NCBI RefSeq assembly: GCF_001544355.1
Contig: NZ_BCQI01000009.1
Coordinates: 1-64,000 of the forward strand
DNA: 64,000 nt
DNA from: Alicyclobacillus acidiphilus NBRC 100859
GTDB lineage: Bacteria; Bacillota; Bacilli; Alicyclobacillales; Alicyclobacillaceae
Direction: 5' to 3'
Within the stretch, counting starts at the first letter, position 1. The number at the start of each line of letters is the position of its first letter. This document shows, piece by piece, positions 8,001 to 16,874 of the stretch. A program made the translations under genes and the position numbers. Under the pieces are notes generated by a model, which saw only the letters and a program-made list of their open reading frames with translations, searched no databases and was not told where the DNA came from.

Positions 8001-8849
8001 ATGAAGATATTTATTTCTGCTGACATCGAGGGCGTTTCGGGCGTAGCGACGAATGTCCAACTTACCAAGGAGGGCGAGTACCAACGCTTTCGGCGGCTGT
8101 ACACACAAGATGTCAATGCGGCCATCGCGGGGGCGTTTGATGGCGGGGCCACCGAAGTGGTTGTGGCTGACGGCCATGGCAATATGTCGAATATCCTCAT
8201 TGAGGAGTTGGACGATCGCGCCGTCCTCATCAGCGGCAACAATCGCGTGATGTGCCAACTGGAAGGTCTCGACGAGTCCTATGACGGTCTGTTCTTTGTC
8301 GGGCACCATGGACGGGAAGGCGGAGATGTGCGTGCGGTCATCAACCACACGCTTGCGGGCATCTGCGTCAGCGAACTCAAAGTGAATGGAACAGTCTTGG
8401 GTGAAACTCAACTGAATGCCAGAGTCGCAGGCCAGTTTGGGGTTCCAGCCCTATTCATCTCAGGTGACGACGCGTATGTGGAAGAGGTAAAGCGCGACCT
8501 GCCGCATATTGAGGCAGCGATCGTCAAGTGGGGCATCGACAGATATTCGGCCAAATTGCTGCCACCCGCAAAGGCGCAGCAGATCATTCGCGAAAAAGCC
8601 AAAGCGGCGATGGGGCTGATTGGCACAGCGAAGCCCAAACGGCTGGATGGCCAGGTAACCTTTGAGGTCACATTCAAGAATACGGCTCAAGCGCACATGA
8701 CGACGACGATCCCGCTCATCGAGCAGACATCGCCGACCACCATACGATTCACGACTGCGGATATGGTGACCGGATACAAACTGTTCTGGGGCTGCGTCAT
8801 CATCGCCATGACTGCGACGAATGGCGTCCTGAGCGCTGCAAACGCTTGA
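8001..8849 (+). CDS. dppA: D-aminopeptidase, M55 family
   Basis: Zinc-dependent peptidase of the DppA family, which in Bacillus subtilis removes N-terminal D-amino acids from short peptides, thought to help reuse cell-wall peptides. It has 282 aa, normal length, and is cytoplasmic. The metal-binding residues of the family are visible: DIEG (Asp8, Glu10), ADGHGN (His60), GHHGR (His104) and GETQLNA (Glu133 region), plus VINHTL. The ATG at 8001 begins the conserved MKIFISADIEGVSG. It stands alone here, without the dpp permease genes with which it is linked in B. subtilis. Confidence 0.94.
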   Translation: MKIFISADIEGVSGVATNVQLTKEGEYQRFRRLYTQDVNAAIAGAFDGGATEVVVADGHGNMSNILIEELDDRAVLISGNNRVMCQLEGLDESYDGLFFVGHHGREGGDVRAVINHTLAGICVSELKVNGTVLGETQLNARVAGQFGVPALFISGDDAYVEEVKRDLPHIEAAIVKWGIDRYSAKLLPPAKAQQIIREKAKAAMGLIGTAKPKRLDGQVTFEVTFKNTAQAHMTTTIPLIEQTSPTTIRFTTADMVTGYKLFWGCVIIAMTATNGVLSAANA

Positions 8850-9159: not shown

Positions 9160-10104
9160 ATGCCGATCTACGATGGCGAATCAAATATCATGGTGACCTC
9201 GCGAGATTCATCGCTCGAACAGGCTCACTTTAACGGCCTGACGATGTCTTTGTTAGCCTCGGGAGACGGGACGGAATTGATCCATCACCATTTGGCGGCA
9301 GGGTACGATTGGGCAATCGGACCAGAAGAGGGCTGGCAAGCATTCGAATCCATTTGTGTGCTGCGAGGGCACCTGACATGGGAGTCTCAAGAAGGCACTC
9401 AGCATCTGCGGCCGGGTGACGTCCTGTCCGCACACCCGATTCAAAAGTACGTCGTCTTCACGGCCCAGGAAGATACAGATTTTTTGTATGTTGTCACGCA
9501 GCCAGTCTTTCACCAATACAGTCAGCAATTGCACGCATTGGTGCAGATGGCGATTTCTATCGCGGAAAAGGACGGGTATACTTCGGGCCACTGTGACCGA
9601 ATCAAAACGATGTCGGTTCAGGTTGGACGAGTCATGGGGCTCTCGCAATCGCAATTGTTCAATCTGAACATGGGATCGTTTTTTCACGACATCGGCAAGA
9701 TTCGCGTGCCAGAAGCTATCCTGCTGAAAGCGGGGAAGTTGACGGACGACGAGTGGAAAGAGATGCGCGAACACGCGCTGCACGGGAAACGGATTCTGCT
9801 CGAAAGCGAACTTCCGTACTTGAAGGAACCGGCCAATATTGTCGCGCAGCATCACGAACGCCAGGATGGGAGAGGCTATCCGCTCGGTCTTCGCGGAGGC
9901 GAAATCTGTATCGAAGCGGCAATTATTTCGGTTGTCGACTCGTTTGACGCGATGACCACTGATAGACCTTATCACAAAGCGGTAAGTCGCGCTGACGCGG
10001 CGGCGGAGTTGCAGCGATGCAAAGGAACGCAGTTTCACCCGGACGTCGTCGACGCGTTTATCCGCGTGCTTGAGGAGGACCCGGGGATTCAAGCAGGTGC
10101 TTGA
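9160..10104 (+). CDS. Cupin/HD-GYP domain protein, probable c-di-GMP phosphodiesterase
   Basis: 314 aa. Residues about 20-115 form a small beta-rich, cupin-like domain (LRPGDVLSAHPIQKYVVFTAQEDTDFL), a likely ligand sensor. Residues about 125-300 are an HD-GYP domain: GHCDRIKTMS, the metal-binding HD in FFHDIGKIRVPEAILLKAGKL, HHERQDGRGYPLGL and VVDSFDAMTTDRPYHKA. HD-GYP proteins hydrolyse cyclic di-GMP to pGpG or GMP. Key residues are intact, so activity is likely. The ATG at 9160 is chosen for the GAGGAGG before it. A c-di-GMP riboswitch lies directly downstream, suggesting local action on that signal. Confidence 0.88.
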   Translation: MPIYDGESNIMVTSRDSSLEQAHFNGLTMSLLASGDGTELIHHHLAAGYDWAIGPEEGWQAFESICVLRGHLTWESQEGTQHLRPGDVLSAHPIQKYVVFTAQEDTDFLYVVTQPVFHQYSQQLHALVQMAISIAEKDGYTSGHCDRIKTMSVQVGRVMGLSQSQLFNLNMGSFFHDIGKIRVPEAILLKAGKLTDDEWKEMREHALHGKRILLESELPYLKEPANIVAQHHERQDGRGYPLGLRGGEICIEAAIISVVDSFDAMTTDRPYHKAVSRADAAAELQRCKGTQFHPDVVDAFIRVLEEDPGIQAGA

Positions 10105-10129
10105 TTTAGCGAATCAACGAGTATATGAT
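10101..10129 (+). promoter_or_regulatory. Promoter of the first c-di-GMP riboswitch transcript
   Basis: TTGATT at 10101-10106 and TATGAT at 10124-10129 with a 17-base spacer. The -35 box overlaps the stop codon of the HD-GYP gene. The riboswitch begins about 30 bases downstream. Confidence 0.55.
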
Positions 10130-10157
10130 GGAATTAATAGAAAATATACGTTTCGGG

Positions 10158-10243
10158 GACGACAAAGGCAAACCTACTGAAAAGTGGGGACGCAAAGCTA
10201 GAGGGGCTACGCAGTGATTGCACGCCAGCCAGCTGCCGAATTT
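10158..10243 (+). ncRNA. Cyclic-di-GMP-I riboswitch (GEMM-I)
   Basis: The segment carries the hallmark GEMM-I elements in order: GGCAAACC, a GAAA-capped hairpin, GGGGACGCAAAGCT, a variable arm and the closing GCCAGCCAGCTGCC. In this class the aptamer binds c-di-GMP between its two helices. It is followed by a hairpin with a T run (10257-10285), so it probably works by transcription termination. The gene it controls is the small secreted protein at 10329. The second copy at 15456 shares GGCAAAC and GGACGCAAAGCTA. Confidence 0.88.
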
Positions 10244-10256
10244 GCATCGGTTGCGG

Positions 10257-10285
10257 AATGCACCCGTGTAAATCGGGTGCATTTT
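10257..10285 (+). terminator. Terminator stem of the riboswitch expression platform
   Basis: AATGCACCCG (10257-10266) pairs with CGGGTGCATT (10274-10283) around a 7-base loop, running into TTTT. It lies 14 bases after the aptamer and 44 bases before the coding start. Confidence 0.75.
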
Positions 10286-10328
10286 CCTATTTGTCGTCCG
10301 GCGCGAGGACGCGGAGGTGTAATGTCGG

Positions 10329-10616
10329 GTGATGAAGAAATCGATAGCAATTGCGCTGGTTGTTGGTGCAGTACAGGTGGTTGGCACTGTAACCGCCATG
10401 GCGGCAACCAGTACTGGGTATGACTCGTCCGATGATACCACGGTGAATATTGGATCGTCCGGGCAAACATCGCAAACGGCCTTGTCCACAGCCACATTCG
10501 ATTTGCAAGAGAGTCTGTACCAAGCCACGGGTGCAGATGTTTCGCACGACTATATTTGGGTCAGCGTGAACGGAAACTCGCTCATCGCGTTGGATCCGCC
10601 GCGCCCAATGGCGTAA
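10329..10616 (+). CDS. Small secreted protein under c-di-GMP riboswitch control
   Basis: 95 aa from GTG at 10329 (ATG at 10332 is the alternative); GGAGGT lies 10 bases before the GTG. Residues 1-26 are a signal peptide: MMKKS, hydrophobic core, AMAA cleavage site. The mature 69 residues are Ser/Thr/Asp-rich at first (STGYDSSDDTTVNIGSSGQTS), then QESLYQATGADVSHDYIWVSVNGNSLIALDPP. No Cys and no anchor, so it is probably released or held in the wall. I do not recognise a family. Its own terminator at 10649-10698 makes it a single-gene unit whose expression should follow c-di-GMP. Confidence 0.75.
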   Translation: MMKKSIAIALVVGAVQVVGTVTAMAATSTGYDSSDDTTVNIGSSGQTSQTALSTATFDLQESLYQATGADVSHDYIWVSVNGNSLIALDPPRPMA

Positions 10617-10648
10617 CTTTTACTACATAAATTCTATCCACTACATAC

Positions 10649-10698
10649 ACGGGGTCTCATGCGCAGCGTTCCCTCTGCGCAATGTGGTCCCGTTTTTT
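10649..10698 (+). terminator. Terminator after the secreted protein gene
   Basis: ACGGG (10649-) pairs with CCCGT ahead of six T residues, with an inner GCGCAG/CTGCGC stem. It closes the riboswitch-controlled unit. Confidence 0.8.
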
Positions 10699-12178: not shown

Positions 12179-13843
12179 GTGTCCAAAAAGCGTTTAATCG
12201 GTCTTGCGGCAACCTCGGCCATGGCGCTCGCGTTAACGACGAGCCCCATGTTGCAGGCATCAGCGGCTACAGAGCCTCCGCTCGTCGTCGTGACAAGTCC
12301 ACAAGGTACGTATGCTGAGAATTTCAACCCGTACTCTTCCGGACAATTGGCAGGCACACAAGGCAACGTATACGAATCCCTGTTCTTCTTTGACGCGGTT
12401 ACGGGGAAAACGTGGGATCTGCTTGGGAAGAGTTACGCATTCTCGAATGGCAACAAAACGTTGACCGTACAGCTCCAACCGAATGCGAAGTGGACGGATG
12501 GACAGGCGTTTACGGCGAACGACGTCGTGTTTACGTTTAACGATCTCAAGAAATACCCTGATGCCGATTCAAACGGCGTTTGGCAATATTTGAAGAGTGT
12601 TCAAGCGAAGGGAACCCACACGGTCGTATTCAATTTCAAGTCGGTCAACGTGCCGTTCGCGGAGCAGTATGTCTTGGGCGAGACGTGGATTCTCCCGCAA
12701 CACGAATGGTCTTCGCTCGGAGATCCCGCCAAGGCGAAGATCACGGTCAGCAACGCGATTGGCACAGGCCCGTTCATTGTGAGCTCATTTACCACACAGG
12801 ACTACAAATTTAAGGCCAATCCAAACTATTACCTTGGTGCTCCCAAAGTTCCGGAACTGGATTATCCCGCATTCGCCAGCAATGCAAGCGCGGATCTCGC
12901 GTTGGCGAACGGCAGTGTGCAGTACGGCAACTTGGACATCCCGAATGTCGAGAAGACGTACGTTGCCGGCAACAGCCACAACCACTACTATTTCCCGCCA
13001 GACAACGAAGTGGAGCTGTATCCAAACCTCAGCAATCCTTTGTTGGCTCAATACAATGTGCGTGAGGCAATCAGCCTGGCTATCAACAGAAACAAACTCT
13101 CTACACTCGGTGAAACCGGTTACGAAGGCGTCGGCAATCCAATCAGCTTGCCGTTGCCCAACTTCAAGGACTGGGTAGATCCGAGCTTGCCGAAATCCGA
13201 TTTGACGTTCTCGGCTCCGAACGACGCGAAAGCCATTCAACTGCTTGAGGCCGCTGGGTTCAAGAAAGATTCGAATGGCATCTTTGCGAAGAACGGCAAA
13301 GAGCTGAACTTCAACCTCGAAGTCGTCTCTGGTTGGAGCGACTGGGACGAAGATTGCCTGCTCATCAAGCAGGATCTTTCGAAGATTGGCATCGGCATCA
13401 CCGTCAATCAGGTCGACTATGGCACGTACTATGCCAACATCGCTCCAACACCAGGTAAAAATGGCGTGACAACAGGCAAATACGACTTGGCTGTCTCTTG
13501 GACGAACGAAGGTCCGACGCCGTACCTTGCATACTACGACATGCTGGATTCGCACGGCGTGTTCAACGTGGAAGGATTTAAGAACAAAACCGTAGACAAC
13601 GCGTTGAACTCTTTTGCGTCTACAACGAACCTGACCACGCAGAAGAAGGACATGTACACCATCGAGAAGATCGCTGCCGAACAGTTGCCTGTGATTCCAT
13701 TGCTGACGGGCGCTTATTGGTACGAGTACAACGACAAGGACTACACCGGTTGGCCGACCAAGTCGAATCTTTGGATTACGCCTGGTCCGGCAAACACGCA
13801 ATCGGCGGCTATTGTGATGCAGCACCTCAAGCCAGTTCACTAA
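12179..13843 (+). CDS. ABC transporter solute-binding protein, family 5, orphan
   Basis: 554 aa extracellular binding protein of the oligopeptide/oligosaccharide type. A signal peptide covers about residues 1-30 (KKRLIGLAATSAMALALTTSPMLQASAA) with no lipobox Cys, unusual for a Gram-positive binding protein of this kind. Family 5 blocks are present: GQLAGTQGNVYESLFFFDA, LQPNAKWTDGQAFTANDVVFTFNDL and VREAISLAINRNKL. GTG at 12179 is chosen for the GAGGAGG 8 bases before it. No permease or ATPase gene is linked. Position between a LacI gene and a GH30 glycosidase suggests it binds an oligosaccharide, as some family 5 proteins do, rather than peptides. Confidence 0.9.
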   Translation: MSKKRLIGLAATSAMALALTTSPMLQASAATEPPLVVVTSPQGTYAENFNPYSSGQLAGTQGNVYESLFFFDAVTGKTWDLLGKSYAFSNGNKTLTVQLQPNAKWTDGQAFTANDVVFTFNDLKKYPDADSNGVWQYLKSVQAKGTHTVVFNFKSVNVPFAEQYVLGETWILPQHEWSSLGDPAKAKITVSNAIGTGPFIVSSFTTQDYKFKANPNYYLGAPKVPELDYPAFASNASADLALANGSVQYGNLDIPNVEKTYVAGNSHNHYYFPPDNEVELYPNLSNPLLAQYNVREAISLAINRNKLSTLGETGYEGVGNPISLPLPNFKDWVDPSLPKSDLTFSAPNDAKAIQLLEAAGFKKDSNGIFAKNGKELNFNLEVVSGWSDWDEDCLLIKQDLSKIGIGITVNQVDYGTYYANIAPTPGKNGVTTGKYDLAVSWTNEGPTPYLAYYDMLDSHGVFNVEGFKNKTVDNALNSFASTTNLTTQKKDMYTIEKIAAEQLPVIPLLTGAYWYEYNDKDYTGWPTKSNLWITPGPANTQSAAIVMQHLKPVH

Positions 13844-15363: not shown

Positions 15364-15455
15364 GTTCGAATTTGCGCCGATATTTAGAAGTTTATCTCAA
15401 AACTATCGACAACTGTAGAAATCTGTCGAAATGTGTAGTATGATGGCGAAAGAAT

Positions 15456-15542
15456 GGAATACTTGGCAAACACACTGAAAAGTGTGGACGCAAAGCTACG
15501 GGTCTAAAGGCGGAATCGCCCATGATCGCCGGGTTGCATCTC
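15456..15542 (+). ncRNA. Cyclic-di-GMP-I riboswitch (GEMM-I), second copy
   Basis: GGCAAAC, a CACACT-GAAA-AGTGTG hairpin, GGACGCAAAGCTACGGGTCTAA and the closing GCCGGGTTGC reproduce the GEMM-I aptamer. A TATGAT at 15439-15444 is a probable -10 box. After the aptamer, GGGTTGCA (15531-15538) can pair with TGCAACCC (15550-15557), and CGG/CCG plus TTTT follow, so the 3' half of the aptamer may be taken into an alternative stem. It controls the PAS-EAL gene starting at 15600, whose product should degrade the ligand. Confidence 0.88.
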
Positions 15543-15599
15543 TTGTCCCTGCAACCCACGGTTTCGGGGATTTTCCGTTTTAAAGGGGGGTGTGGTGTC

Positions 15600-16874
15600 A
15601 TGTCGTCGACATCGCAAGACTCCCTGGCGGAGAACGGACAGGAGATTCAACAGGTGTCCACGTTTGCCTGGATGACGGCAAACTCGCCAGTGGCGGTCTA
15701 TGCATTGGACAAGAATGGTTTTATCATCAGTTGGTCGGAAGCAGCTCAACGCATATTTGGTTGGTCTGCGGAAGAGCTGATTGGACACGCCGGATTGCAG
15801 TTGATTCCAGCGGGTGAAATCGAAGAGACATATCAAATCACAAGAGAAATCCTGAATGGCAAAATCATCAACGGCAAACTCGTGAAACGTCAAACCAAGT
15901 CCGGCGATATTCTCACTGTGATCATCTGGGCCTATCCCCATATCAATGCTGCGGGAGAGGTCCTAGGCAGCACCATCTTTGCGGCGGAGGACTTCCGATC
16001 CACGGAACTGTTTGTTCATCGGGATCGAATACGTATGTACGAAGCGTTGACGCAGGCTTTGCAGCGTAACGAATTCGAACTGTACTATCAACCCAAGGTC
16101 GACACGGAAACAGGCAGACTGCTGGGCGCGGAAGCGTTGCTGCGGTGGTTCAACCCTGAATTGGGACAGGTTTCGCCTGAACATTTTATTCCGTTTGCAG
16201 AGCAGTCTGGACTGATTTGGGAGATTGGCGCATGGGTTTTGCGGCGGGCTTGCGCATGCGCGAAATCGTGGCAAATGGCGGGACTGCCTTCAATTCGAAT
16301 TGCTGTCAACGTCTCCGTCGTTCAATTTGAACACGACGGCTTTCTTCAACTGGTCGAAGAGGTTCTTGAAGAAACACAGCTTGACCCGCAGTGGCTTGAG
16401 CTGGAAATTACCGAATCTGTATTTGCAAATCACCTCGAGCGAGTGATCTCGGTCGTCAATCGACTGACGGAACTCGGGGTGAGTATAGCTGTTGACGACT
16501 TTGGCACGGGCTATTCCGCGCTTCGCTATTTGCCGTTTATGGCATTGTCCACGTTAAAAATCGATCAAGCGTTTGTCCGGATCTTGCAAGAGACGGATCG
16601 GGCCAAACTCGTGGTCGCGAACATGATTGAATTGGCGCACTCTTTGAACATGCGAGTGGTTGCGGAGGGCGTTGAACATCCAGGGCAGTGGGCGGTGCTC
16701 AAGGCAAACCGATGTGACGAAATTCAAGGTTATCTCGTTTTGCCGCCGCAGCCGCAAGATCTGTTTGAGCAGATTTGCCTGAAGCGACCGGAGGGGGAGG
16801 CTCTGTACGCCTTCGAGTTTACGAACCAGCACCTTCGTGAAATAGGCGAACCAATAGCTGTACAGCGCCGATGA
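15600..16874 (+). CDS. PAS-EAL protein, probable c-di-GMP phosphodiesterase
   Basis: 424 aa, soluble. A PAS sensor covers about residues 22-135 (SPVAVYALDKNGFIISWSEAA, FGWSAEELIGH). The EAL domain covers about 145-400 with an apparently complete set of active-site motifs: AEALLRW, NVSVVQFE, LELEITES, VDDFGTGYSALRYL, LKIDQAFV, VVAEGVEH and IQGYLVLPP. There is no GGDEF domain, so the role is breakdown of c-di-GMP to pGpG. ATG at 15600 has AGGGGGG upstream. Because a c-di-GMP riboswitch lies in its leader, the gene probably forms a feedback loop. Its last 56 bases overlap the convergent J-domain gene. Confidence 0.93.
   Translation: MSSTSQDSLAENGQEIQQVSTFAWMTANSPVAVYALDKNGFIISWSEAAQRIFGWSAEELIGHAGLQLIPAGEIEETYQITREILNGKIINGKLVKRQTKSGDILTVIIWAYPHINAAGEVLGSTIFAAEDFRSTELFVHRDRIRMYEALTQALQRNEFELYYQPKVDTETGRLLGAEALLRWFNPELGQVSPEHFIPFAEQSGLIWEIGAWVLRRACACAKSWQMAGLPSIRIAVNVSVVQFEHDGFLQLVEEVLEETQLDPQWLELEITESVFANHLERVISVVNRLTELGVSIAVDDFGTGYSALRYLPFMALSTLKIDQAFVRILQETDRAKLVVANMIELAHSLNMRVVAEGVEHPGQWAVLKANRCDEIQGYLVLPPQPQDLFEQICLKRPEGEALYAFEFTNQHLREIGEPIAVQRR

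Follow-up and report, generated by a model that had tools for sequence, protein, structure and literature searches.

A putative peptide-pheromone cassette in Bacillota built on a cupin-HD-GYP phosphodiesterase and accompanied in some lineages by a c-di-GMP riboswitch

A two-gene cassette, consisting of a gene for a cupin-HD-GYP c-di-GMP phosphodiesterase and a downstream gene for a short exported peptide, is widespread in Bacillota, where it occurs in many families and also on plasmids. The cassette is apparently undescribed; our search of the open-access literature (subscription papers were outside its scope) yielded no description of an HD-GYP protein together with a pheromone, a cupin, RRNPP or Phr. 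One such cassette is present in a 64,000-nucleotide stretch of Alicyclobacillus acidiphilus DNA, hereafter the window, in which a c-di-GMP-I (GEMM-I) riboswitch lies between the two genes. This locus is probably a peptide-pheromone cassette whose receptor and effector is a phosphodiesterase and not a TPR protein. With a little more reserve, we also favor the broader view that it represents a class of peptide quorum sensing that is new and related to neither RRNPPA nor Agr. In this class, the intracellular pheromone receptor would be the cupin domain of an HD-GYP enzyme, the peptide would directly set the c-di-GMP level, and a c-di-GMP riboswitch on the pheromone gene would close the loop in some lineages.

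Results

The gene pair in the window

The first gene (9160-10104, plus strand) starts with an ATG at 9160, preceded by GAGGAGG, and encodes a protein of 314 aa that matches Pfam HD_5 (1.8e-33). Its AlphaFold model is confident (pLDDT 89) and consists of a cupin beta barrel, formed by residues 1-116, and the HD-GYP helices. Foldseek matches of this model include HD-GYP structure 4mcw and the cupins ectoine synthase, EutQ, TM1459 and KdgF. The catalytic motifs expected of an HD-GYP phosphodiesterase are intact (HD, and HHERQDGRGYP for HHExxDGxGYP). Fusion of a sensor to HD-GYP is also known from phosphodiesterases with PAS, REC or globin domains; the cassette enzyme differs from these in that its sensor is a cupin, for which a linked gene for an exported peptide is the candidate source of ligand. 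TPR motifs, of which five to nine are expected of an RRNPPA receptor, were absent from this protein, in which Pfam finds only HD and the model only cupin and HD-GYP. It is therefore not an RRNPPA member, although it would work like one. A second cupin-HD-GYP gene of the same genome (L070, G000:C55:235-573) is cut by a contig end, with no peptide gene in view.

The second gene (10332-10616, plus strand) encodes the exported peptide precursor, which has 94 aa when read from ATG, or 95 aa from GTG at 10329; its homologues share both the reading frame and the gene order. A Sec signal peptide is predicted at 10332-10403 with a cut after TAMA (MKKSIAIALVVGAVQVVGTVTAMA followed by ATS, assigned by eye), and relatives have the same design. 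Toward the C-terminus, the alignment reveals a conserved beta-hairpin of long precursors, YIWVSVNGNSLIAL (10551-10592), and the protein ends in DPPRPMA (10593-10613), the proposed mature signal. The AlphaFold model of the precursor is poor overall and uninformative (pLDDT 55.7), with the hairpin modelled as two strands. The gene is followed by a terminator of its own at about 10649-10698 (-23.8 kcal/mol, z -3.8, then TTTTTT). Comparison with Pfam, NCBIfam, PHROGs and PDB sequences gave nothing above threshold, and viral contigs contained no relatives. Against the NCBIfam cut-offs for known signaling peptides, there was no match to Phr, and the best scores for AimP and AgrD were 13.2 and 11.2 bits versus 35 and 19 bits, respectively. 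These data agree with the original prediction, made from the DNA sequence of the locus, of an unfamiliar protein that has a signal peptide and whose gene ends in a separate terminator.

Other genes in the window include an M55 D-aminopeptidase gene (8001-8849) upstream of the pair and a gene for an SBP_bac_5 solute-binding protein (12179-13843) downstream. The latter protein could belong to a peptide importer; its LacI and GH30 neighbors suggest a sugar system.

Conservation of the gene pair

Homologues of the small protein were first found in an Alicyclobacillus MAG (G018, 57% identity) and in Bacillota MAG CF.Solf.bin.4 (G039, 46%), and a profile search added two further genomes (G369 and G050). 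The homologue search proposed with the original prediction thus returned only four relatives, in each of which the small protein gene lies directly 3' of a cupin-HD-GYP gene. That prediction had suggested that the upstream HD-GYP gene may tune the signal of the small protein; the link proved stronger than this, as the gene pair is conserved across many families.

The cassette survey started from the cupin domain, which was used in genome searches, and the DNA 3' of each HD-GYP gene was then read. The 80 cupin-HD-GYP proteins collected across Bacillota fell into two clades in the tree. An exported short ORF was located downstream in 44 of the 50 members of the window's clade (the other six lack a peptide gene) and in 3 of the 30 members of the other clade (a Peptoclostridium plasmid, G453 and G758), counts that are not independent since many of the genomes are congeners. 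Peptides were detected with a home-made rule (a positively charged start and a hydrophobic stretch) rather than SignalP, and four of the 44 (L056, L156, L161 and L165), missed by the automatic rule, were added by eye. When applied to other genes of these loci as background, the same rule selected 4 of 197, none of which had an acidic-proline end.

In most loci, the two genes overlap at stop and start (ATGA) or are separated by 3-25 nt. Most peptide ORFs have a positive start, a hydrophobic core and an A-x-A site, as judged by the rule and by eye. Ten pairs of peptide ORFs had dN/dS values of 0.05-0.42, and these ORFs are thus under purifying selection. In annotations, the products of cassette peptide genes figure as hypothetical proteins, and the shortest of these genes are easily overlooked by gene callers.

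On the enzyme side, most pairs show faster divergence in the cupin domain than in HD-GYP, with distance and the conservation that is usual for catalytic domains as confounding factors; such divergence would be expected of a ligand-binding part and weakly suggests this role. Where peptides share the C-terminus (L065/L067, L057/L058 and L094/L148), the cupins are 87-98% identical, these being also the closest pairs.

Precursor anatomy

The shortest precursor has 28 aa and the longest 124 aa. Their constant part is the proline-rich C-terminus, whereas the body varies or vanishes. In addition to DPPRPMA of the window, C-termini include DPPKFMF, DPPAVMF, DPPLVMD, DPPIVMY, TPPIVMD and DPPHPMF, and sister cassettes have the C-terminal pair SVPIPFFN/NVPVTLFN. 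In long forms (about 70-124 aa), a beta-hairpin precedes the end, which reads YIWVSVNGNSLIALDPPRPMA in the window and LAVDPPKFMF, LAVDPPAVMF, VTVDPPLVMD or GIDPPHPMF in others. Short forms, such as MKKMVYFLAMTALAAGLVIEPQSVPIPFFN, MKYRLFNLAVKASLAVTAIITIMSDPGPMP and one ending in FGTTSTPPIVMD, consist of a signal peptide and the end with nearly nothing in between.

In some precursors, the end is repeated. The 38-aa precursor of L156 (MKKLLSSALLTPPAPWVNRHQPPAPWVNKTQPPAPWVN, ending in TPPAPWVNRHQPPAPWVNKTQPPAPWVN) contains PPAPWVN three times, and the 55-aa precursor of L154 (ending in SVPPVVMYGANSIPPVVMY) contains PPVVMY twice. In the tree, L156 groups with L162, which has a 103-aa precursor, in a clade of precursors of ~100 aa that includes L153 (ending in DPPHPMVN); thus, the body differs or was lost while PP-x-P-x-VN was kept. 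Several long precursors (L054, L134, L151, L159, L162 and L167) run beyond the motif.

The original prediction took the small protein to be a surface or matrix factor, and this part found little support. In a fuller form, the idea is that c-di-GMP regulates the protein as an exported factor of the surface, matrix or envelope and that the HD-GYP gene does no more than set c-di-GMP locally. Genes of this kind are often under the control of GEMM-I riboswitches, and long precursors, including that of the window, retain the hairpin before DPP; it is possible that these precursors contain a folded exported domain with a role of its own. However, precursors of 28-38 aa are made up of a signal sequence and the C-terminal motif, this hexa- or heptapeptide occurs in two or three copies in some precursors of the cassette, no adhesin or matrix family scored above threshold, and the linkage is to the enzyme, mostly in loci that have no riboswitch. 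We therefore hold a surface or matrix role to be unlikely.

Quite unlikely, too, is that the peptide stays inserted in the membrane by its hydrophobic N-terminus as a small partner with an anchoring or regulatory effect on the HD-GYP protein, with no diffusible signal. One would expect such a partner to be tightly linked to the enzyme, and the tiny members L133, L136, L157 and L158 do lack a clear signal-peptidase site. Yet good A-x-A sites are the rule among the members, the conserved part would face away from the cytosolic enzyme, across the membrane, and multi-copy C-terminal repeats fit an anchor poorly. A released C-terminal peptide, as in the pheromone reading, would account for the repeats and for the near absence of a body in short precursors.

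The riboswitch and its placement

The aptamer at 10158-10241 (plus strand) matches RF03167 (c-di-GMP-I-GGC) with 65.5 bits (E 3.1e-13), above the gathering threshold of 59. The search with the general model, RF01051, that had been proposed for verifying a full GEMM-I aptamer gave 72.5 bits at 10157-10240 against a gathering threshold of 35. The conserved core is complete, with GGCAAACC, the GAAA tetraloop, GGGACGCAAAGC and CUGCCGAA. Judged by the RF03167 alignment, the ligand-contacting G (Hoogsteen) and C (Watson-Crick) and the GAAA loop are all retained, their roles being those known from the Vc2 structure. Also retained is the first G of GGCAAA, the position that selects c-di-GMP over cAMP-GMP. 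The GGC variant model outcompetes RF01051 within the Rfam clan, and the usual CUAA/AUG tetraloop receptor is missing from P3. Both features would be compatible with a degenerate or altered-ligand GEMM-I variant in which c-di-GMP is not coupled to the peptide gene, but the RF01051 score and the retained G and C argue against it, as do related arrangements in other genomes, which have standard RF01051 aptamers (73.7-77.5 bits). We regard this alternative as very improbable and treat the element as a c-di-GMP riboswitch.

The terminator stem that had been predicted behind the aptamer corresponds to an intrinsic-terminator-like hairpin of 12 pairs at 10255-10285 (plus strand, -18.6 kcal/mol), which would serve as the expression platform. 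Two further candidate structures on this strand emerged from folding: a ligand-free hairpin at 10231-10254 (-7.4 kcal/mol), which would sequester the 3' strand of P1, and an antiterminator at 10241-10272 (-11.2 kcal/mol), predicted to be mutually exclusive with both this hairpin and the terminator. With the aptamer enforced, the antiterminator forms transiently in the folding predictions, at transcript lengths 10272-10276. This order of folding leans weakly toward c-di-GMP acting as an ON signal for the peptide gene, which seems somewhat likelier than the reverse; it is a lean only, because the terminator is predicted to exceed the other elements in stability in either state and to be dominant at equilibrium. 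The aptamer's 5' edge (10157-10166, GGACGACAAA) is perfectly complementary to a segment just 3' of the terminator (10290-10299, TTTGTCGTCC). Pairing of the two segments in the complete transcript would disrupt P1 and might contribute to the switch or to the control of translation.

Upstream, a consensus scan located a sigma-A-like promoter (TTGATT-17-TATGAT, 9/12) at 10101-10129 on the plus strand, a match that by itself is no evidence of function. It overlaps the end of the HD-GYP gene, and the riboswitch RNA may thus be its own transcript. Downstream, the Shine-Dalgarno sequence GGAGG (10313-10317) precedes three possible starts; spacing favors ATG 10322 (4 nt, versus 11 nt for GTG 10329 and 14 nt for ATG 10332), but the 33-aa Cys-rich overlapping frame that it would open (10322-10423) can be dismissed as the real product, since homologues conserve the 10332 frame, with identities of 54 and 43%.

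The element resembles other RF01051/RF03167 riboswitches in having an aptamer and a terminator platform in the 5' leader of a gene; it differs from them in its location between a phosphodiesterase gene and the peptide partner. In G453 and G758, two congeneric genomes from another class, such an aptamer has independently come to lie between the enzyme and peptide genes, and in G748 it lies ahead of the whole pair, which makes three separate placements around the cassette. In addition, two peptide-less cupin-HD-GYP genes of a single genome (L144 and L146, G739) have a c-di-GMP-I riboswitch upstream, where it would provide direct feedback on the phosphodiesterase. These placements indicate that c-di-GMP feedback was attached to the enzyme family several times. 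No Rfam riboswitch occurs near the G018 and G039 loci, and most related loci likewise lack one; thus, the riboswitch is an add-on and the conserved unit is the enzyme with its exported peptide. Where it separates the two genes, c-di-GMP should control signal production.

Genome-wide, we detected nine c-di-GMP-I elements in 3.86 Mb, including the aptamer described above. A second, canonical one in the window (15455-15541; RF01051, 77.4 bits) precedes a PAS-EAL phosphodiesterase gene (15594-16874), such that two riboswitch/phosphodiesterase arrangements lie less than 6 kb apart. At other places in this genome, c-di-GMP-I riboswitches form two pairs with members only 2.5-4.6 kb from each other (L006 and L010 on G000:C40; L004 and L011 on G000:C19).

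Discussion

In the RRNPPA systems of Bacillales, the propeptide gene is located immediately downstream of the receptor gene, the propeptide is exported by Sec, and several subfamilies have multi-copy mature peptides (PMC9765709). The Phr products of B. subtilis have 39-57 aa, are cut to 5-6 aa and are re-imported by Opp (PMC3601992). The cassette resembles Rap-Phr and the other RRNPPA systems (Rap, NprR, PlcR and AimR with Phr, NprX, PapR and AimP) in that the gene for a cytosolic receptor/effector is followed by that for a Sec-exported precursor, with the peptide gene immediately downstream in the proportion of the window's clade given above and with Sec/SPI signals recognized by the rule and by eye. 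Further similarities are the constant C-terminal residues, the repeated peptides of L154 and L156, and the occurrence across Bacillota and on plasmids. The difference lies in the partner, a cupin-HD-GYP protein in place of one with a TPR domain. Since this partner is a phosphodiesterase, the output of the cassette would be c-di-GMP itself and not a phosphorelay or a promoter. The cassette has the appearance of a hormone system of bacteria with a direct connection to a second messenger.

We propose that the cassette works as follows. The first gene would supply a cytosolic c-di-GMP phosphodiesterase in which an N-terminal cupin sensor is joined to HD-GYP, and the second a Sec-exported precursor. 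Outside the cell, proteolysis would release the few C-terminal residues (about DPPRPMA in the window), and the released peptide would be taken back into cells. There it may bind to its receptor, the cupin domain of the HD-GYP protein of the same cassette, and change c-di-GMP hydrolysis with cell density or confinement, in a direction for which we consider both possibilities. In the window, where a promoter-like site and a riboswitch of its own precede the peptide gene, c-di-GMP would in turn feed back on signal production. If the switch is ON, a peptide that activates the phosphodiesterase would give negative feedback, and inhibition of the enzyme by the peptide, comparable to that of Rap by Phr, would make the feedback positive.

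How Gram-positive bacteria couple population signals to c-di-GMP is largely open, and a phosphodiesterase with its own exported peptide would answer this question directly. If the proposal is correct, the cupin would be an added receptor fold in peptide signaling, and a riboswitch between the two genes would make the locus a self-contained feedback circuit.
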